64,000 nucleotides of DNA from Acidobacteriota bacterium (GTDB lineage Bacteria; Acidobacteriota; Aminicenantia; Aminicenantales; Saccharicenantaceae), in assembly GCA_039683095.1 (NCBI GenBank), contig JBDKSB010000012.1, positions 1,117,846 to 1,181,845 on the forward strand, read 5' to 3'. The notes under the pieces are model-generated. The model saw only the letters and a list, made by a program, of their open reading frames with translations, did not search any database and was not told the origin of the DNA. The translations under genes and the position numbers were made by a program. Below, piece by piece: positions 49,994 through 59,096 of this stretch. Position 1 is the stretch's first letter, and every line of letters starts with the position of its first letter.

Positions 49994-50145
49994 TAGTCGC
50001 CCGCCTGTGAGGCCGGCCGACGGCCGAAAGCCGCCGTGCCCCGCCTCGCTTCCCCCCGCCTCCTGCCTGACCCCCTTCAGGGGGGACCCGCGCCGATCTT
50101 CCCGTTTTGCGCTTGCAAGGACAATCCACGTACCGGAGGGATGAT

Positions 50146-50619
50146 TTGGACATCGACACTACGAAGGTCCAGTCGATCGTCGACAAGCACAGGGGCCTCA
50201 AGAAGAACCTCATCGCCATCCTTCTCGACGTCCAGGAGAGCTTCAACTACCTTCCCCCGGAAGCCCTGCGACACGTCGCCAAGGCCCTGGACATGCCCCT
50301 CATCAACGTCGTCGGCGTAGCCACGTTCTACCGGGCCTTCAGCCTGAAGCCGCGGGGCAAGCACACCTGCCTCGTCTGTCTCGGCACGGCCTGCCACGTC
50401 CGGGGCGGACCGAAGATCCTGGAGGAGCTCGAGCGCAAGCTCGACATCCCGGCCGGAGAGACGACGAAGGACGGACTGTTCACCCTGGAGACGGTCGCCT
50501 GCCTTGGCTGCTGCGCCATCGGGCCGGTCGTCGTCGTCGACGGCGAGTATCACGGCCGCGCCACGATCCGCAATATCGGACCGATCCTCGGCAAATACCA
50601 GGCGCCGGAAGCGTCATGA
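50146..50619 (+). CDS. NuoE-like [2Fe-2S] subunit (HydC/HndA type)
   Basis: 157 aa from TTG at 50146, chosen because GGAGGG ends six bases upstream. A helical N-terminus (LKKNLIAILLDVQESFNYLP) leads to the thioredoxin-like [2Fe-2S] domain with four cysteines: CLGTAC... gives two and CLGCCAIGP gives the others, all retained, unlike the NuoE part of HoxF. It is the BfuC/HydC component of NADH-linked bifurcating complexes. First gene of a five-gene operon. Confidence 0.93.
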   Translation: MDIDTTKVQSIVDKHRGLKKNLIAILLDVQESFNYLPPEALRHVAKALDMPLINVVGVATFYRAFSLKPRGKHTCLVCLGTACHVRGGPKILEELERKLDIPAGETTKDGLFTLETVACLGCCAIGPVVVVDGEYHGRATIRNIGPILGKYQAPEAS

Positions 50620-50638
50620 CGGAAAGGAAGGACATCTG

Positions 50639-51031
50639 ATGGCCGGAACAAAGAAACTCCGCATTCAAGACCTGGCCAAGATCCGGGAAAGGACAAAATC
50701 GATGATGGCCATCCGGGAGAGCGAAGGCCGGGCCCGCGTCACGGTCCACATGGGCACGTGCGGCATCGCCGCCGGCGCCCGCGACATCATGGATGCCCTT
50801 CTCGGGGAGATCGAGAAGGCCCAGATCCAGGACGTCATCGTCACGACGTCGGGGTGCGCCGGGCTGTGCAACGCCGAGCCGATGATGACCGTCGAGCTCA
50901 AGAACCATCCCCCCGTGAAATACGGTTACCTGACCCCGGAGAAGCTGCACAAGATCTTCGTTCAGCACATCCTCGGCGGGCAGATGGCCGCCGACCTGGT
51001 GCTGGCCGTCGGCTGCGAAACCATGTATTAG
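50639..51031 (+). CDS. Thioredoxin-like [2Fe-2S] protein (HndB-like)
   Basis: 130 aa. Helical N-terminus, then VHMGTCGIAAGAR and SGCAGLCNAEP, giving the Cys pattern of thioredoxin-like [2Fe-2S] ferredoxins; the last Cys, in AVGCETMY, is near the C-terminus. HndB occupies the same place between HndA and HndC in Desulfovibrio NADP-linked hydrogenases. 8 bases separate it from the next gene. Confidence 0.87.
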   Translation: MAGTKKLRIQDLAKIRERTKSMMAIRESEGRARVTVHMGTCGIAAGARDIMDALLGEIEKAQIQDVIVTTSGCAGLCNAEPMMTVELKNHPPVKYGYLTPEKLHKIFVQHILGGQMAADLVLAVGCETMY

Positions 51032-51039
51032 GGGGCGTC

Positions 51040-52857
51040 GTGAAACACTACCGAGCTCACCTTCTGGTCTGCGCCGGCACCGGCTGCGTCTCCTGCGGAT
51101 CGTTCAGGATCAAGGAGGCCCTCGAGGCCGAGATCAAGAAGAAGGGCCTCGAAGACGAGGTCCAGGTCGTGGCCACGGGCTGCAACGGCTTCTGCGAGCG
51201 GGGGCCGATCGTCATGGTCCAGCCCGACGGCATCTTCTACCAGCTCCTCAGCGTCGAGGATGTCCCCCATCTCGTCGAGGAGCACCTCCTCAAGGGCCGC
51301 CCCGTCCAGAAGCTGATGTACGTGCCGCCGGACGAGAAACAGCCCGTCCCGAAGATGAAGGACATCGAGTTCTTCAAGCACCAGCGGCTGATCGTGCTGC
51401 GCAACCGGGGCCGGATCGACCCGGAGAGGATCGAGGAATATATCGCCTTCGACGGCTACGAGGCCATGGCCAAGGCCCTCTCCGGGATGAAGCCCCAGGA
51501 GATCATCGACGAGATCCTTTTCTCCGGCCTCCGCGGCCGGGGCGGCGCCGGCTTCCCCACGGGCAGGAAGTGGGCCCTCTGCGCCAAGGAGAAAAGGTCG
51601 CCGAAGTACATCATCTGCAACGGCGACGAAGGCGACCCGGGGGCCTTCATGGACCGCTCCGTCCTCGAGGCCGATCCCCACGCCGTTCTCGAAGGTATGG
51701 TCATCGGGGCCAGAGCCATCGGGGCGGCCAAAGGATTCGTCTACATCCGCCATGAATATCCGCTGGCGCTCAAGCGCATGGAGATCGCCATCGCCCAGGC
51801 CCGGGAGAACGGCCTGCTCGGCCAGGACATCCTGGGGACCGGCTTCGATTTCGATCTCGAGATCGTCCAGGGCGCCGGAGCCTTCGTCTCCGGCGAGGAG
51901 ACGGCCCTGATCGCCTCCGTCGAGGGCGAGATCGCCATGCCGCGGCAGAGACCCCCCTATCCGGCCCAGAGGGGGCTATGGGGCCAGCCGACGGTCATCA
52001 ACAACGTCGAGACCTGGGCCACCGTCCCCAACATCATCCGCCGGGGCGCGGACTGGTTCCAGGGGCTGGGGACGGAGACAAGCAAGGGGACCAAGATCTT
52101 CGCGCTCGTCGGCAAGATCGCCAATACCGGGCTGGTCGAGGTCCCGATGGGGATCACCCTTCGCGAGATCGTCTACGGCATCGGCGGCGGCATCCCCGAT
52201 AAGCGGGATTTCAAGGCCATCCAGATCGGCGGCCCCTCCGGCGGCTGCCTGCCGGCCAAGATGCTCGACCTGCCCGTCGACTACGAGAGCCTGACCGCGG
52301 CCGGGGCCATGATGGGCTCGGGCGGCATGATCGTCATGGACGACCGGACCTGCATGGTCGACGTGGCCAAGTACTTCCTCAATTTCCTGCAGGACGAGTC
52401 GTGCGGCAAGTGCGTGTCCTGCCGGGAAGGCACGCAGAGGATGTACGAGATCGTCAAGGGCATCACCGAGGGCAAGGGCCGGGAAAGCGATCTTGCCCTG
52501 CTCGAGGAGCTGGCCACGATCTGCAAGGACGCCTCGATGTGCGCCCTCGGCCAGACGGCGGGCAATCCCGTCCTGACGACCCTGCGCTACTTCCGCCACG
52601 AGTACGAGGCCCACATCCTCGACAAGAGATGCCCAGCCGGCGTCTGCAAGAGCCTCATCCGCTACGTCGTCCTCGCCGAGAAGTGCACCGGCTGTCAATC
52701 CTGCAAGAAGGCCTGCCCGAACGACTGCATCAAGGGCACTCTCAAGGATGTCCACCTGATCGACCAGTCGAAATGCATCAAGTGCGGCGCCTGCAAGGAG
52801 GCCTGCAAGTTCGAGGCCATCGAAGAGCAGCGCGACGAAGCCATTCAGATCGTTTGA
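51040..52857 (+). CDS. NuoF-like FMN/NADH subunit with extra ferredoxin domains (HydB/HndC type)
   Basis: 605 aa from GTG at 51040. Four regions: an N-terminal [2Fe-2S]-like domain (CAGTGCVSC, GCNGFC); a NuoF core with GLRGRGGAGFPTGRKW near 166 (FMN) and CNGDEGDPGAF (NADH); ESCGKCVSC near 452 with MCALGQT for [4Fe-4S]; and a C-terminal two-cluster ferredoxin (CTGCQSCKKAC ~548, CIKCGACKEAC ~578). The N- and C-terminal additions separate HydB-type bifurcating subunits from complex I NuoF. It is the presumed NADH and ferredoxin branch point. Confidence 0.94.
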   Translation: MKHYRAHLLVCAGTGCVSCGSFRIKEALEAEIKKKGLEDEVQVVATGCNGFCERGPIVMVQPDGIFYQLLSVEDVPHLVEEHLLKGRPVQKLMYVPPDEKQPVPKMKDIEFFKHQRLIVLRNRGRIDPERIEEYIAFDGYEAMAKALSGMKPQEIIDEILFSGLRGRGGAGFPTGRKWALCAKEKRSPKYIICNGDEGDPGAFMDRSVLEADPHAVLEGMVIGARAIGAAKGFVYIRHEYPLALKRMEIAIAQARENGLLGQDILGTGFDFDLEIVQGAGAFVSGEETALIASVEGEIAMPRQRPPYPAQRGLWGQPTVINNVETWATVPNIIRRGADWFQGLGTETSKGTKIFALVGKIANTGLVEVPMGITLREIVYGIGGGIPDKRDFKAIQIGGPSGGCLPAKMLDLPVDYESLTAAGAMMGSGGMIVMDDRTCMVDVAKYFLNFLQDESCGKCVSCREGTQRMYEIVKGITEGKGRESDLALLEELATICKDASMCALGQTAGNPVLTTLRYFRHEYEAHILDKRCPAGVCKSLIRYVVLAEKCTGCQSCKKACPNDCIKGTLKDVHLIDQSKCIKCGACKEACKFEAIEEQRDEAIQIV

Positions 52858-52865
52858 GAGGGACC

Positions 52866-53549
52866 ATGATCACCTTTCGCATGAATGGGTTGGAAGTGAA
52901 GGCGGAGGAGGGGTCGACCATCCTCGACGCGGCCAGGTTCTACGGCCTGGAGATCCCGACCCTCTGCTACAACGAGGGGCTGACGCCCTTCGGGGGGTGT
53001 CGGCTCTGCGTCGTCGAGATCGGCGAGGGCCTGAGGAGCAAGCTCGTCTCGTCCTGCACCTATCCCGCCGAGGAGGGGCTCGTCGTCCGGACCGATTCCG
53101 CCAGGGTCTGGGCGTCCCGGCGGATGATGATCGAGCTCATGCTGGCCATGGCCCCGGGGTCCAAGGTCCTCCAGGATATGGCCTCACGGTTCGGGGTGAC
53201 GCGGGTCCGGTTCACCCCCCGCAACGGCGAGTGCGTTCTCTGCGGCCTGTGCACTCGCATCTGCGCCGAGCAGATGGACGCCTCGGCCATCGGCTTCCAG
53301 CAGCGGGGCCACAAGAGAAAGATCTCGACGCCCTTCGACATGCGCTCGGAGGTCTGCCGGCTGTGCGGGGCCTGCATGTACATCTGTCCCGCCTGTCAGC
53401 TGCGCTGCCAGGGCCCGAACGCCGAAACGGCTCTGTGCAACGGCTGCCTGACCATGGAACCGACCTGCCTGGAGCACTACGACGATCTGCAATGTTGGAT
53501 GTACGATGCGGGCCGCTGTGGCACCTGCGTTCAAGAAAAGAAACCCTAA
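52866..53549 (+). CDS. NuoG-N-like iron-sulfur protein without H-cluster domain
   Basis: 227 aa. [2Fe-2S] domain at residues ~34-64 (LCYNEG, CRLC, SCTYP), followed by two [4Fe-4S] motifs: CVLCGLCTRIC (~122) and CRLCGACMYICPAC (~165). A Cys-rich end (CNGCLTMEPTC, CGTC) may bind another cluster or zinc. It equals the N-terminal electron-relay part of HydA, but stops before the [FeFe] hydrogenase domain. There is no debris of that domain after it. It presumably passes electrons to the glutamate synthase-like protein encoded 22 bases downstream. Confidence 0.88.
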   Translation: MITFRMNGLEVKAEEGSTILDAARFYGLEIPTLCYNEGLTPFGGCRLCVVEIGEGLRSKLVSSCTYPAEEGLVVRTDSARVWASRRMMIELMLAMAPGSKVLQDMASRFGVTRVRFTPRNGECVLCGLCTRICAEQMDASAIGFQQRGHKRKISTPFDMRSEVCRLCGACMYICPACQLRCQGPNAETALCNGCLTMEPTCLEHYDDLQCWMYDAGRCGTCVQEKKP

Positions 53550-53571
53550 AGGCATATGAGGAGGTAACATC

Positions 53572-55155
53572 ATGCCGAGTCTCACGAAAATCAACAGAAG
53601 CGCCGCCACCCTGACCAAGAACAGGACCGAAGGGTCGATCAGCCCCTTCAGCGGCATGTGCGTGACCTGCGTCGACGGCTGCATCGGGATGTGCGAGATC
53701 GGCAAATCCGCCTACCGAGGCGCCGAGGTCCTCTATCCCCAGCCGTTCGGCATCATCACGGCCGGCTGCGAGAAGGACTATCCCGTCGACCTGTCCCACT
53801 TCAGCATCATGGGCACGGCCAAGGGGGCCTGCGGCGTCGAGGCCGACAGCGACAAGGCGACCTTCGAGAAGGTCACGGTCGAGACGAAGATCGGCCGCAA
53901 CAAGGACATCAAGCTCAAGGTCCCGTTCATCATCTCCGGCATGGGCTCGACCAACGTGGCCCGGCAGAACTGGGCCGGCCTCGGCGGCGGCGCGGCCATC
54001 GCCGGGTCGATCCTGACGATCGGCGAGAACGTCTGCGGCATGGACGACGAGACGGAGCTCAAGAACGGCCGGGTCGTCCGCTCGCCGGACATGGAGTTCC
54101 GCATCAGGTCCTACCGTGATTGGCAGGACGGCTACGGCGACGTCGTCGTCCAGGCCAACGTCGAGGACACGCGGCTGGGCACCCAGGAGTACGCCATCGA
54201 GAAGCTGGGCATCGAGACCGTCGAGCTCAAGTGGGGCCAGGGGGCCAAGGATATCGGCGGCGAGGTCAAGCTCAAGACCGTCACCAAGGCCCAGGCCCTG
54301 AAAAAGAAGGGCTACATCGTCCTGCCCGACCCCGAGGACCCCAACGTCATCGCCGCCTTCGAGAAGGGCAGCTTCAAGGAGTTCGAGCGCCACTCCCGCA
54401 TGGGCATGGTCGACGAGGGCGACTTCATTAAACGGGTCGAGGAGCTGCGCAGGATCGGGGCCAAGCACGTCTTCCTGAAGACGGGCGCTTACCGGCCGGC
54501 CGACCTGGCCCGGGCCGTGAAGTACGCCTCCAAGGCCAAGCTCGACCTCCTGACGGTCGACGGCGCCGGCGGCGGCACGGGCATGAGCCCCTGGCGGATG
54601 ATGAACGAGTGGGGCATCCCGACCGTCGAGATCTGGTCCCTGACCTGGAAGTTCGCCGACCAGCTGGCCAAGCAGGGCGAGTACGTGCCCGACCTGGCCT
54701 TCGCCGGCGGCATCACCTTCGAGGACCAGATCTTCAAGGCCCTGGCCCTCGGCGCGCCCTACGTCAAGGCCGTCGGCATGGCCCGCTCGCCCCTGGCCGC
54801 GGCCATGGTCGGCAAGACGATCGGCGGCCGCATCGCCGACGGGCAGATCCCGGTCTACGTCGAGCGCTTCGGCAGCAGCCGGGACGAGATCTTCGTCACC
54901 GCGCCCGAGCTGCGGCGGCGCTTCGGGGCCCGGTTCGAGGAGCTCCCGTCCGGGGCCATCGGCGTCTACACCTACTTCAAGCGCCTCAGCCAGGGCCTCC
55001 GCCAGATGATGGCCGGCGAGCGCAAGTTCACGCTCGACTACATCAACCGCGACGACATCGCCTCCCTGACCAGGGAGGCGGCCGATATCAGCGGCATCCC
55101 GTACATCACCGACGTGGACAAGGAAGAGGTCCAGAAGATCCTCAAGGGCAAGTAG
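53572..55155 (+). CDS. FMN-binding glutamate synthase-like oxidoreductase
   Basis: 527 aa. The barrel from about residue 130 matches the glutamate synthase FMN domain: VPFIISGMGSTNVARQNWAGL, VELKWGQGAKDIGGEVKL, LLTVDGAGGGTGMSPWRMM and FAGGITFEDQIFKALALGA. There is no amidotransferase domain. The usual three cysteines for a [3Fe-4S] cluster after the barrel are absent; instead CVTCVDGCIGMC near residues 30-41 could bind a cluster. The substrate is unknown. Being last in an NADH/ferredoxin operon, it is the likely catalytic end. Strong GAGGAGG before the start. Confidence 0.88.
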   Translation: MPSLTKINRSAATLTKNRTEGSISPFSGMCVTCVDGCIGMCEIGKSAYRGAEVLYPQPFGIITAGCEKDYPVDLSHFSIMGTAKGACGVEADSDKATFEKVTVETKIGRNKDIKLKVPFIISGMGSTNVARQNWAGLGGGAAIAGSILTIGENVCGMDDETELKNGRVVRSPDMEFRIRSYRDWQDGYGDVVVQANVEDTRLGTQEYAIEKLGIETVELKWGQGAKDIGGEVKLKTVTKAQALKKKGYIVLPDPEDPNVIAAFEKGSFKEFERHSRMGMVDEGDFIKRVEELRRIGAKHVFLKTGAYRPADLARAVKYASKAKLDLLTVDGAGGGTGMSPWRMMNEWGIPTVEIWSLTWKFADQLAKQGEYVPDLAFAGGITFEDQIFKALALGAPYVKAVGMARSPLAAAMVGKTIGGRIADGQIPVYVERFGSSRDEIFVTAPELRRRFGARFEELPSGAIGVYTYFKRLSQGLRQMMAGERKFTLDYINRDDIASLTREAADISGIPYITDVDKEEVQKILKGK

Positions 55156-55182
55156 GCGGCGGCATCGGCTGAATTACCTCCG

Positions 55183-55224
55183 ATCGGCGGAGGAGGGCTG
55201 GGTCCTTCCTCCGCCGATTTTTTT
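55183..55224 (+). terminator. Terminator after the glutamate synthase-like gene
   Basis: ATCGGCGGAGGA pairs with TCCTCCGCCGAT, 12 bp, followed by seven T. Confidence 0.92.
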
Positions 55225-55350
55225 AATCCGCCCTTTTCCCCCGCGTCCCTCCCGGGACGCTTCTCGGAGACGTCCCGGCCGGACGGCTTCGAGCCGCCCT
55301 CCCCGCGATGGCGATGGCCGCCCCGGCTTTGTTTTAGCTCCGGTTCCGGA

Positions 55351-55356
55351 TATAAT
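55351..55356 (+). promoter_or_regulatory. -10 box of the sensor module
   Basis: Perfect TATAAT 39 bases before the first DRTGG gene; TTTGTT at 55328-55333 is a weak -35 with 17-base spacing. Confidence 0.5.
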
Positions 55357-55394: not shown

Positions 55395-55751
55395 ATGATC
55401 GTTCTCAAGGACGTTCTGGCCCTTCTCGACGGCGAGCTCCTCACCCCGGCAACCGCCCCCGAGGCGGCCTTCGGCAAGGTTTTCGCCTCCGATCTCATGA
55501 GCGACGTCCTGACCTCCGCCGAGCCCGGCTCTCTCCTGCTGACGGGGCTGGCCAATTCTCACGTCGTCTGCACCTGTTCGGTGGCCGATCTCGCCGGCGT
55601 CGTCTTCGTCCAGGGCAAGCGCCCGGCGCCGGAGGTAGTCCGCGAGGCCGGGACGAAGAACCTCCCCCTCATCGCCACCAAGATGACGATGTTCGAGGCC
55701 TGCTCGCGGATCGCCGGCCTCTTACAGGACGGAGGCCATGCCCGCCGCTGA
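55395..55751 (+). CDS. DRTGG domain protein 1
   Basis: 118 aa. A single DRTGG-type alpha/beta domain: ASDLMSDVLTSAEPGSLLLTGL, VVFVQGKRPAPEVVREA and LPLIATKMTMFEACSRIAGLL. DRTGG domains bind nucleotide-like ligands or act in kinase regulation and frequently lie beside [FeFe] hydrogenase operons. SD GGAGG. Overlaps the next gene by 14 bases. Confidence 0.85.
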   Translation: MIVLKDVLALLDGELLTPATAPEAAFGKVFASDLMSDVLTSAEPGSLLLTGLANSHVVCTCSVADLAGVVFVQGKRPAPEVVREAGTKNLPLIATKMTMFEACSRIAGLLQDGGHARR

Positions 55752-56187
55752 GCCCGTCTTCCGCCGGGAGTTCCCCGTCAAGGGCGGGGACTTCGCCAAC
55801 GCCGGAGCCGCCGCCTGTGAAATCAAGGAGCTGCTGAAGGACCTCGGGCTGGCCACCGCGACGATCCGCCGCGCGGCCATCGTGGCCTACGAGGCGGAGA
55901 TGAACGTGATCATGTACGCGAGCGAGGCCCGGATGAACCTGGCCGTCTCCTCGGAGGAAGTCCGCCTGACCATCGACGATCGCGGCCCCGGCATCGCCGA
56001 CGTCGAACTGGCCATGACGGAAGGCTATTCGACGGCGACGGCAGAGATGCGGGAGCTCGGCTTCGGCGCCGGCATGGGCCTGCCGAACATCAAGAGGAAC
56101 GCCGACGTCTTTGCCATCGACTCGGAGGTGGGCCGGGGGACGCGCCTCGACATCATCATCCGGACGAACGGACACGGACCATCATGA
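55738..56187 (+). CDS. RsbW/RsbT-like ATPase (anti-sigma/serine kinase fold)
   Basis: 149 aa. GHKL ATPase fold: the N-box lies in RRAAIVAYEAEMNVIMYA, the G1 box in IDDRGPGIAD and the G2 box in GFGAGMGLPNIKR. There is no dimerisation/phosphoacceptor domain, so it is like RsbW/RsbT serine kinases, not a complete histidine kinase. Overlaps its neighbours on both sides. Presumed signal output or input of the [FeFe]-like sensor next to it. Confidence 0.88.
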   Translation: MPAAEPVFRREFPVKGGDFANAGAAACEIKELLKDLGLATATIRRAAIVAYEAEMNVIMYASEARMNLAVSSEEVRLTIDDRGPGIADVELAMTEGYSTATAEMRELGFGAGMGLPNIKRNADVFAIDSEVGRGTRLDIIIRTNGHGPS

Positions 56188-57485
56188 ACGAGACCAAGAC
56201 CGAAAAGAACTTCCACGCCATCCACATCACCAAGGACAAGTGCATCGGCTGCGTCCGCTGCCTGTCCGCCTGCCCGACCCGGGCCATCCGGGTCCAGGAC
56301 GGCCGGGCCCGCATCATCGGCCAGCTCTGCATCGACTGCGCCGAATGCCTCCGGATCTGCCCGCGCGACGCCATCCACTCCCACACCACCTCGTTCGCCG
56401 CGCTAGACGCCTTCGATTACAAGGTCGCCATCCCCTCGACGGTGCTCTACGGCCAGTTCGGCTCCTCCGTCCTGCCCAACGAGATCCTCTCGGCCCTGCG
56501 CCGCATCGGCTTCGACGAGGTCTACGACCTCAGCTCCATCTGCGAGCTCAACTGCGCGGCGACCGAGGAGTACCTCAACGACCACCCCCGGCCGCGGCCG
56601 TACATCACCTCGACCTGCCCGGTCGTGGTCCGCATCATCCAGCGGCGCTACGCGTCGCTCTGCGGCCAGATCCTGCCCATCGAGCCGCCCCGGGAGATCG
56701 CGGCCAAGATCCTGCGCACGATCCTGCCCAAGTCGCTCGGCCTCCCCGCGGAACGGATCGGGATCATCCACATCACCCCGTGCCCGGCCAAGATCGTCTC
56801 CATCAACAGTCCGGCCTCCCTGGCCAAGTCCTACCTCGACGGGGCCATCTCGATCCGGGACATCTTCCCGCAGGTCGTCAAGGCCCTGCGCAAGAGCGAG
56901 GAGGACTCCCTGATGCGGCACCTTTTCCCGGAGACGCTCTTCAGCGGCATCGGCATGGGCTGGTCCCTGTCCGGGGGCGAGATCCGGGGGCTCAAAAGCC
57001 ATCGGGCCGTGGCCGTGTCCGGCATCCAGGACACCATGCGCGTCCTCGATCAGGTCGAGGGCGGGCTCCTCCAGGACATCGACCTGCTCGAGTGCACGGT
57101 CTGTCCGGACGGCTGCGTCGGGGGGCCCCTCGAAGTCGAGAACCGCTTCCTGGCCAAGAGCCGGATCCTGGAGCTCGTCGCGGCCGCCGGCGAGCACGCC
57201 GTCGTGGACCAGAAGGACGTCAGCCGGCTCTATCACCGGAACTTCCTGTCGTTCGACCACCCCGTGCCGCCTGCCGAAGCCCGGCCCCTGGACCTCGATC
57301 CGGCCACGGCCATCCGCAAGGCCAAGCTCCGGGACAAGATCGACGCCGGCCTGCCCCAGAAGGACTGCGGCATCTGCGGCGCGCCCGACTGCCGGACCCT
57401 GGCCGACGATATCGTCCGCGGCTACGCCCGGCTGGAGGACTGCCCGTTCGCCGAGACGGCCAAGACGAAGAAGGAGAAACGATGA
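56184..57485 (+). CDS. [FeFe]-hydrogenase-like putative sensor protein
   Basis: 433 aa. Two [4Fe-4S] motifs at the N-terminus (CIGCVRCLSAC ~20, CIDCAECLRIC ~49), an iron-hydrogenase large-subunit fold (~75-340), and a C-terminal CGICGAPDC...C four-cysteine FeS domain (~395-425). The H-cluster motifs are altered: TSTCP (Cys145; the proton-relay Cys is Thr), TPCPAK (Cys200) and ECTVCPDGC (Cys304, Cys307, Cys311). The four cubane ligands can be filled, but the catalytic relay is lost. This fits the sensory groups of [FeFe] hydrogenases. Overlaps on both sides with module genes. Confidence 0.87.
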   Translation: MNETKTEKNFHAIHITKDKCIGCVRCLSACPTRAIRVQDGRARIIGQLCIDCAECLRICPRDAIHSHTTSFAALDAFDYKVAIPSTVLYGQFGSSVLPNEILSALRRIGFDEVYDLSSICELNCAATEEYLNDHPRPRPYITSTCPVVVRIIQRRYASLCGQILPIEPPREIAAKILRTILPKSLGLPAERIGIIHITPCPAKIVSINSPASLAKSYLDGAISIRDIFPQVVKALRKSEEDSLMRHLFPETLFSGIGMGWSLSGGEIRGLKSHRAVAVSGIQDTMRVLDQVEGGLLQDIDLLECTVCPDGCVGGPLEVENRFLAKSRILELVAAAGEHAVVDQKDVSRLYHRNFLSFDHPVPPAEARPLDLDPATAIRKAKLRDKIDAGLPQKDCGICGAPDCRTLADDIVRGYARLEDCPFAETAKTKKEKR

Positions 57486-57823
57486 TCCTGTCCGATCTGG
57501 TCCCGCGTCTCGAGCTCAAGGTCTTCACGGCCGGCGTCGCGCTCGACCGGCCTGTCCGCGGCGGCTACGCGAGCGACCTCCTCAGCGACGTCATCGGCCA
57601 CGCCCGCAAGGACGACCTCTGGGTGACCATGCAGGTCCATCCGAACATCGTCGCCGTCGCGGTCCTCAAGGAGCTGGCCGCCATCGTCGTCGTCAACGGC
57701 CGCGAGCCGGCTCCCGAGACCCTGGAGCAGGCCGCCCGCGAGAAAGTGCCCATTCTCGGCGCCGGTTCGGGCACGTTCGAGCTGGCCGGGCGGCTGTACG
57801 GACTCGGCCTCAAGGGAAGTTGA
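57482..57823 (+). CDS. DRTGG domain protein 2
   Basis: 113 aa from the ATG at 57482, overlapping the previous stop (ATGA). Same fold as the first DRTGG protein: GGYASDLLSDVIGHARKDDLWVTMQ, VVVNGREPAPETLEQA, VPILGAGSGTFELAGRLYGLG. The two share SDLLSDV and REPAPE-type blocks, so they are probably an old tandem duplication split by the sensor gene, perhaps forming a heterodimer. Confidence 0.83.
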   Translation: MILSDLVPRLELKVFTAGVALDRPVRGGYASDLLSDVIGHARKDDLWVTMQVHPNIVAVAVLKELAAIVVVNGREPAPETLEQAAREKVPILGAGSGTFELAGRLYGLGLKGS

Positions 57824-58569
57824 TGTCCCTGCGCCGTCTGCGGGCCGACCTCCACATCCACACCTGCCTGTCCCCCTGCGGCGAGCTGTCGATGTCGCCG
57901 CGGGCGGTCGTCGAGCGGGCCCGGGCGGCCGGGCTCGACCTCATCGCCGTCACCGACCACAACACGACCGAGAACGCCGCCGCCGCCACGGCCGCGGCCG
58001 GCGGAACCGGGCTGGCCGTCCTGCCCGGCATCGAGCTGACGACCGCCGAGGAGGTCCACGTCCTCGGGCTCTTCGACGCCGGCGCCGACCTCGGCCCTTT
58101 CCAGGCCGAGGTCTACCGCAACCTGCCCGACGTCCCGTCGAAAGCGAAGTTCATCGAGGACCAGGTCCTCGTCGACGCGGACGACTATGTCATGGGCTTC
58201 TGCCCCCGGGGCCTGTTCGGGGCGACGCGGTTCCCGGTCCGGGACGCCGTCGAGCTCATCCACGCCCACGGCGGGCTGGCCATCGCCTGCCACGTCGACC
58301 GCGAGGCCTTCGGCATCATCGGCCAGCTCGGCTTCATCCCGCCCGGACTCGGGCTCGAGGCCGTCGAGGTCTCGCCCCGGACGACGGCGGCCGAGGCCCG
58401 GGCAAGCCTCGGCTCCATCGGGTCCCTGCCCATCGTCCGCTTCTCCGACGCCCACAGGCCCGAGGAGATCGGCGCGGCCGTCACCGAATTCCTCGTGGCC
58501 GGCCCGTCGCTCGGGGAGATCCGCCTGGCCCTGGCCGGCGAGTCCGGACGGGAGGTCCTCGCTCCATGA
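57823..58569 (+). CDS. PHP domain phosphoesterase
   Basis: 248 aa from the ATG at 57823 (TGATG overlap with the previous stop). Metal ligands of the PHP trinuclear site: DLHIHTCLSPCG, VTDHNT, PGIELTTAEEVHVLGLF, ACHVDREAFG and FSDAHRPEEI. Related proteins hydrolyse phosphate esters such as nucleotides or oligonucleotides. In this module it may remove a phosphate or a nucleotide signal set by the ATPases. SD-like sequence upstream is poor, consistent with coupled translation. Confidence 0.88.
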   Translation: MSLRRLRADLHIHTCLSPCGELSMSPRAVVERARAAGLDLIAVTDHNTTENAAAATAAAGGTGLAVLPGIELTTAEEVHVLGLFDAGADLGPFQAEVYRNLPDVPSKAKFIEDQVLVDADDYVMGFCPRGLFGATRFPVRDAVELIHAHGGLAIACHVDREAFGIIGQLGFIPPGLGLEAVEVSPRTTAAEARASLGSIGSLPIVRFSDAHRPEEIGAAVTEFLVAGPSLGEIRLALAGESGREVLAP

Positions 58570-59096
58570 TGGAGGACCTCTCGCTCCACATCCTCGATCT
58601 CGCCGAGAACGCGGTGGCCGCGGGCGCGACGCGCGTCCTCATATCGGTCAACGAAAACGAGCGGCGCGATGTGCTGACCATCCGGGTCGCCGACGACGGC
58701 CGGGGCATGCCGGCGGCGGACCGGGCCCGGGCCCTCGACCCGTTCTTCACGACCGGGCGGAAGAGGACCGGCCTCGGGCTGCCTCTGCTGGCCCAGACGG
58801 CCGAGCTCTGCGGCGGCCGCCTGACCATCGCTTCGGCGCCCGGCCGGGGCACGGCGGTCGAGGCTCGCTTCCCGTTCTCGCACCTGGACCGGCCGCCGCT
58901 GACGCGGATGGCCGAGACCATGATGACCCTGTTCTTCGGCCATCCGGGCGTCAGCTTCCGCTACGCCCACGCCCGCAACGGCCGTCGTTTCAGCGTGTTG
59001 CGGCGGGGCCGGGAGAGCGCCGCGGCGGACGCGGCCGAGATCACCGCGCTGCGCGACGCGTTGCGGGCGGGATTGAAGCGGGTCGGAGCGGCGTGA
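58566..59096 (+). CDS. GHKL ATPase (histidine kinase-like) protein
   Basis: 176 aa. N-box in LHILDLAENAVAAGA, G1 in VADDGRGM, F-box and G2 in DPFFTTGRKRTGLGLPLL, followed by an added ~60-residue C-terminal region (SFRYAHARNGRRFSVL). It lacks the His phosphoacceptor region. HydE-type ATPases of this kind accompany bifurcating [FeFe] hydrogenases in acetogens. Last gene of the module, overlapping the PHP gene by four bases. Confidence 0.88.
   Translation: MMEDLSLHILDLAENAVAAGATRVLISVNENERRDVLTIRVADDGRGMPAADRARALDPFFTTGRKRTGLGLPLLAQTAELCGGRLTIASAPGRGTAVEARFPFSHLDRPPLTRMAETMMTLFFGHPGVSFRYAHARNGRRFSVLRRGRESAAADAAEITALRDALRAGLKRVGAA

Follow-up and report, generated by a model that had tools for sequence, protein, structure and literature searches.

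A six-gene DRTGG, ATPase, iron-sulfur and PHP module beside a Bfu-type operon is a candidate redox-input phosphorylation switch for electron-bifurcating enzymes

A six-gene module was identified at positions 55395-59096 of a 64,000-nucleotide stretch (the window) from an Acidobacteriota bacterium (Aminicenantia; Aminicenantales; Saccharicenantaceae; assembly GCA_039683095.1, contig JBDKSB010000012.1, positions 1,117,846-1,181,845, forward strand). The host genome comprises 3.29 Mb and is 95% complete, and the loci closest to the window are found in Aminicenantes/Acidobacteriota genomes. The module follows an operon that by its domains belongs to the Bfu (HydABC-like) electron-bifurcating family. 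All six open reading frames are intact, lie on the plus strand and overlap successively by 14, 4, 4, 1 and 4 bases, which agrees with an earlier note on this DNA that had described six genes overlapping by 1-14 bases as a coupled unit. The Pfam order is DRTGG, HATPase_c/_2, Fer4 with Fe_hyd_lg_C and FeS, DRTGG, PHP and HATPase_c. The module and the signals preceding it are:

55182..55225, +, intrinsic terminator with a 16-pair stem and a T-tail, ending the upstream Bfu operon and preceding the module
55351..55356, +, TATAAT -10-like hexamer upstream of the module, spotted by eye (weak evidence)
55395..55751, +, DRTGG1, stand-alone DRTGG domain, 118 amino acids (PF07085, 29.8 bits; signature D33-L-M-S36 ... 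T50)
55738..56187, +, ATP1, SpoIIAB/RsbW-type GHKL ATPase, putative serine kinase, 149 amino acids (E52/E54/N56)
56184..57485, +, FeSens, group D (M2e) HydS-like Fe-S protein, 433 amino acids (Fer4, Fe_hyd_lg_C, FeS)
57482..57823, +, DRTGG2, second DRTGG domain, 113 amino acids (PF07085, 25.7 bits; signature D32-L-L-S35)
57823..58569, +, PHP-family phosphoesterase, 248 amino acids (PF02811; ATG at 57823, in-frame TTG at 57820 possible)
58566..59096, +, ATP2, GHKL ATPase with a conserved C-terminal HIDRxPLGDM extension, 176 amino acids (HydE counterpart by domain and gene position)

Because of the upstream terminator and the hexamer, the module is probably a separate transcription unit here; the promoter scan upstream of it did not find a complete sigma-70 site.

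A scan with FeSens as query retrieved 33 loci (L003-L035) that carry the module, whole or as far as the contig end, in Aminicenantes, WOR-3, KSB1, Gemmatimonadota, Fermentibacteria, Deltaproteobacteria, Sumerlaeota, Lachnospiraceae and Lentimicrobiaceae. Overall, the gene set is spread over Acidobacteriota, WOR-3, KSB1, Gemmatimonadota, Desulfobacterota, Bacillota, Bacteroidota and others, and this recurrence of the same set in many phyla is far beyond chance. With PHP as a marker it was detected, almost always as a single copy, in 135 of 348 genomes from the phylum of a Lachnospiraceae genome and in 66 of 297 from that of a Desulfobacterales genome. A DRTGG gene lies immediately 5' of PHP in at least 29 of the 30 loci of each sampled set. 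Scattering of the genes in relatives, which the earlier note had named as the observation that would speak against a unit, was not seen when neighbourhoods were compared; the module is contiguous. It consists of two separable triads, DRTGG1-ATP1-FeSens and DRTGG2-PHP-ATP2. Their order is swapped in L034 and L035, with DRTGG2-PHP-ATP2 first and DRTGG1-ATP1-FeSens second, and L022 contains an additional copy of the DRTGG1-ATP1-FeSens triad. The near-symmetrical order noticed earlier has an evolutionary basis, each half behaving as a genuine unit. Natural gene fusions join PHP to ATP2 (L203, L205, L206), FeSens to DRTGG2 (L199, L191, L158) and DRTGG1 to ATP1 (L022, L196), and by the usual gene-fusion argument the fused partners probably touch.

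Both DRTGG proteins score over the Pfam cut-off. The AlphaFold2 model of DRTGG1 (predicted local distance difference test, pLDDT, 95) matches the DRTGG structure 2ioj with a Z score of 15.8, and weak matches to phosphohistidine swivelling domains were obtained as well (Z about 9). The DRTGG proteins of the module share a D-x-x-S...T signature, with the serine in 197 of 197, the aspartate in 196 of 197 and the threonine in 195 of 197 sequences; DRTGG1 and DRTGG2 were split by a simple sequence pattern, so that counts for each of the two are approximate. At the same sites of 18 DRTGG domains from outside the module, located in proteins of 360-570 amino acids, these residues occur in 0/18 (Ser), 1/18 (Asp) and 0/18 (Thr). 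In the DRTGG model the signature serine takes the second place, at the start of helix 32-38, which comes after the first long strand. The phospho-acceptor serines of STAS domains occupy a comparable position at a helix start.

ATP1 is closest to SpoIIAB (spIIAB NCBIfam model, 1e-11; profile against SpoIIAB structures, 2e-11). It retains the catalytic Glu and the Asn of the N-box, and its E, E and N are invariant in 84 of 84 sequences; we regard it as a SpoIIAB-like putative serine kinase. The metal site of the PHP protein (HxH, DH, E, H, H, DxH) is intact, E69 being invariant in 17 rows and the other residues in 117 of 117, and its profile matches nucleases and 3',5'-bisphosphate phosphatases. 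A cysteine of this protein, C19, is also invariant (117/117) and lies in an active-site loop, LSPCG, an inserted stretch that solved PHP enzymes such as 3e0f do not have; C19 may be redox-sensitive. ATP2 occupies the hydE position, with the order hydC-ATP2-hydD-hydB-hydA in L194 and many Bacillota loci, and domain and position together suggest that it is the HydE counterpart.

FeSens possesses two N-terminal 4Fe-4S (Fer4) motifs, whose cysteines are kept in the window protein and most aligned rows, and the four cubane cysteines of the H-domain (C145, C200, C307 and C311). Equivalents of C300, C355, C499 and C503 are present in 40 of 40 rows. A threonine is found at the C299 position and another at the M353 position. 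The C-terminal motif Cx2Cx4Cx16C corresponds to C395-C398-C403-C420, and a PAS domain is lacking. The AlphaFold model (pLDDT 90) matches [FeFe] hydrogenases with Z scores of 25-35. These features place FeSens in group D (M2e) as defined previously (PMC8163306), and of the R/K/D/E residues that PMC13104023 lists for group D most are retained, the positions having been matched by us. FeSens is the only match to PF02906 in the host genome, which contains no other Fe-hydrogenase-domain protein; the absence of a visible catalytic [FeFe] hydrogenase, remarked on earlier, therefore holds genome-wide. HydF scored over the cut-off in none of 60 relatives including the host genome, and did so in the one control genome, T. 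maritima (HydE and HydG were not searched). With HydF in the genome taken as the mark of an ability to hold a complete H-cluster, FeSens is not filed as a hydrogenase.

Among 53 further module genomes HydF was found in 20 and not matched in 33, although such calls are imperfect on draft genomes, as several genomes (G075, G509, G261, G086, G166) have a catalytic HydA and yet no HydF match. The FeSens tree has two deep clades, and that of the window contains only genomes without detected HydF or HydA. Most of its members have Thr, Val, Ile or Phe at the C299 position and Val, Ile or Thr at the A498 position, whereas most members of the other clade have Ala or Ser and Ala, respectively. A test of the [2Fe]-pocket residue against HydF (small residue in 15/16 versus 4/24, Fisher about 1e-6) was discarded, as the genomes are not phylogenetically independent and provide only 3 independent HydF pairs; the contrast is a clade difference and essentially one phylogenetic contrast. 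In L189, L192, L202 and L210, ATP1 has an N-terminal CBS pair (by Pfam for L189, by sequence reading for the others) and FeSens is not in the module, losses of FeSens being scored within the fetched stretches only. We read this as an exchangeable input domain. Separately, a PF02906 and FeS protein fused to a HisKA-HATPase was observed in L026 (2907-4967), about 4 kb 5' of the module, in a genome without detected HydF.

The module is associated with bifurcating enzymes of various kinds. It is nested inside the bifurcating operon in L019, L020, L022, L027 and L028, in the order BfuC, DRTGG1, ATP1, FeSens, DRTGG2, PHP, ATP2, HydD-like, BfuB, followed by BfuA where the contig extends. A BfuA with molybdopterin domains (molybdopterin/formate dehydrogenase type) lies beside the module in L019, L022, L027, L032, L182 and L203, GltD-like flavoproteins in L025 and L032, and GltB-like flavin mononucleotide (FMN) proteins in Aminicenantes loci. 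Catalytic [FeFe] HydA accompanies many Bacillota modules and is adjacent in L030, L034, L176, L187, L194-L197, L199, L200, L207, L209, L211 and L212. All seven tested genomes in which the module stretch lacks a Bfu gene have Bfu elsewhere. The module thus tracks Bfu/HydABC-type enzymes whatever the third substrate. The varying partners and the presence of Bfu elsewhere indicate that the common denominator is ferredoxin/nicotinamide adenine dinucleotide (NAD) chemistry and not H2. The earlier note had placed parts of the set near [FeFe] HydABC; this stands for the many modules beside HydA, but the link is to Bfu in general, including molybdopterin, GltB-like and Rnf partners. In L193 (5805-9240) the module, with ATP2 not adjoining, lies directly 5' of rnfC, rnfD and rnfE on the same strand. 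Two Bacillota modules (L201, 10993-13138; L204, 11558-12976) were found beside thiC, with no Bfu operon there.

We propose that the six genes constitute a two-triad switch in which a redox input controls, by serine phosphorylation, NAD/ferredoxin electron-bifurcating (Bfu/HydABC-type) enzymes, and assign this reading a probability of about 0.52. Only the anatomy of the module was observed, and from it we infer each signalling step. The [4Fe-4S] chain of FeSens, surviving without the [2Fe] subcluster, would read the redox state of ferredoxin and set the activity of the SpoIIAB-like kinase ATP1. ATP1 would then phosphorylate the invariant serine (S36/S35) of the DRTGG proteins, and the phosphate would be taken off by the PHP protein, a metal-dependent enzyme under the control of the HydE-type ATP2. 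The phosphorylation state of the DRTGG proteins would finally act on the activity or the synthesis of the bifurcating enzyme. The kinase-type residues agree with a signalling role, as suggested in the earlier note, and so do the natural fusions, the replacement of the Fe-S sensor by CBS domains and the intact metal site of PHP. Several observations weigh against the proposal. In 20-kb stretches, no BfuB was found near the module in 3 of 20 cases from Desulfobacterota and 5 of 20 from Bacillota, and two further Bfu complexes of the host have no module adjoining. FeSens was not found in the Desulfobacterota variant of the module and therefore cannot be the sole input. Pfam detected no STAS match, sigma factor or DNA-binding protein among the module proteins. 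Moreover, the invariant DRTGG serine could instead be structural or ligand-binding, and PHP enzymes act more often on nucleotides and small phosphoesters.

Two other explanations are serious rivals, though each is unlikely. The module might be an assembly or repair factor for Bfu enzymes, whose Fe-S/FMN core it would build or protect; FeSens would then carry clusters in the manner of Nar1, and the two ATPases and PHP would assist at the expense of energy. This would explain why the module follows the Bfu core and not one catalytic partner and why FeSens retains all cubane cysteines, and for HydE the genome paper on Acetobacterium woodii did not decide between assembly and signalling (PMC3315566). 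However, recombinant TmHydABC from E. coli bifurcates after artificial maturation (PMC7064455), so that a bifurcating enzyme does not strictly need the module and an obligatory role is disfavoured (the module status of T. maritima was not checked). The two host Bfu operons without a module also argue against assembly, and the missing FeSens where ATP1 has CBS domains resembles a sensor exchange. Slightly less probable is a nucleotide second messenger, that is, a small phosphorylated compound made and destroyed by the ATPases and PHP and bound by the DRTGG domains. The nuclease- and bisphosphatase-like PHP profile, the co-occurrence of DRTGG domains with nucleotide-binding CBS pairs (3l31) and the CBS-ATP1 fusions agree with a messenger, but the module has no cyclase or nucleotide-transferase domain, the N-box residues of ATP1 are of the kinase type and the D-x-x-S...T site is absent from the 18 DRTGG domains outside the module.

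That FeSens functions as a group D [FeFe]-hydrogenase, reads H2 and adjusts hydrogen metabolism (in this host, the hox [NiFe] enzyme) appears very improbable. Its sequence has group D features, the group D protein TamHydS of Thermoanaerobacter mathranii handles H2 and is encoded upstream of a bifurcating HydABC (PMC8163306), and catalytic HydA accompanies the module in many Bacillota. The missing HydF in host and relatives and the lack of another Fe-hydrogenase-domain protein, however, make H2 sensing via an H-cluster unlikely here, and of the earlier suggestion that the Fe-S protein reads H2 or redox state, the H2 part is for this reason not supported here. The window FeSens clade, with its larger [2Fe]-pocket residues and its genomes without detected HydF or HydA, points in the same direction. 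H2 sensing was also dropped as a general role of the module, since either of FeSens and catalytic HydA occurs without the other: two Desulfobacterota loci (L176, L187) have catalytic HydA beside a module without FeSens, and the window clade has FeSens in genomes without detected HydA. The persistence of the module in bacteria apparently without [FeFe] hydrogenase suggests that it is probably not merely a hydrogen sensor.

The proposed two-triad switch would be a concrete candidate circuit, with a named kinase, acceptor serine, phosphatase and sensor, for the control, so far little understood, of the enzymes with which anaerobes divide electrons between NADH and ferredoxin. On this reading, some members of the "sensory [FeFe]-hydrogenase" family should respond to redox state and not to H2, and the annotation and testing of such genes would change accordingly. 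A wider version can be put forward only tentatively: a serine-phosphorylation circuit with DRTGG in place of STAS might control flavin-based bifurcation in many phyla, and a whole clade of "sensory [FeFe]-hydrogenases" might consist of H-cluster-free ferredoxin/redox sensors that do not sense H2.

The operon upstream of the module comprises the following genes:

50107..50619, +, BfuC, NuoE/HoxE-like 2Fe-2S protein, likely partner
50639..51031, +, HydD-like thioredoxin-type ferredoxin (Fd80; PF01257)
51037..52857, +, BfuB with 2Fe-2S, FMN/NADH (51K), SLBB, NADH_4Fe-4S and two C-terminal 4Fe-4S domains (exact start uncertain)
52866..53549, +, BfuA, short, Fer2 and Fer4, without H-cluster domain
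53572..55155, +, GltB-like FMN protein, putative third-substrate subunit (PF01645, 67 bits)

It matches the BfuABC domain set as defined in PMC9304861, with SLBB slightly below the cut-off, and is a Bfu family member by domains with putative bifurcation activity. The two further Bfu complexes of the host are L255 and L256 (G000:C12, about 735 kb; G000:C1, about 341 kb), one of which has a molybdopterin partner. BfuB frames of about 1020-1090 amino acids occur in L177 (5005-8058), L003, L006-L008, L010, L013 and L014. In L177 a GltD-like flavin adenine dinucleotide/NAD(P) domain is fused to the BfuB C-terminus according to Pfam, and the window BfuB is without such a domain.

Of the systems described here, parts only are already known, namely group D HydS with a neighbouring histidine-kinase-like ATPase, HydE and Bfu; the open-access papers searched gave no account of the six-gene module, the spread over non-hydrogenase Bfu, the serine signature or the CBS exchange. 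The window operon shares the BfuABC domains of the Bfu family, but none of the third-substrate types found in PMC9304861 corresponds to its GltB-like FMN partner (the string "glutam" is absent from that text), and the operon at 50107-55155 may represent an undescribed Bfu type. With TamHydS, FeSens shares, as compared by described features, the domain plan, Cx2Cx4Cx16C, the loss of C299, the exchange of M353 for Ser/Thr and the group D R/K/D/E positions. It differs in that its genome has no HydF or [FeFe] hydrogenase, the pocket carries Thr/Val instead of Ala/Ser and the neighbour is a GltB-type Bfu instead of HydABC. ATP2 resembles HydE of the HydE/HydD pair in the hydABCDE genes of A. woodii in being a histidine-kinase-like ATPase encoded at the hydE position, a likeness drawn without direct alignment; A. 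woodii HydE is reported not to be part of the active hydrogenase (PMC3315566). ATP2, in contrast, is one of six module genes that here are probably transcribed separately from those of Bfu. The CBS-DRTGG region of CBS-pyrophosphatases (3l2b/3l31) and AF1212 (2ioj) have the same DRTGG fold (VIA-align Z 14.5-15.8), whereas the module proteins stand alone and carry the D-x-x-S...T signature. The partner-switching kinases SpoIIAB/RsbW have the profile and the N-box catalytic Glu and Asn in common with ATP1; here, however, no STAS antagonist or sigma factor is adjacent, and a DRTGG protein stands in the place of the STAS protein.

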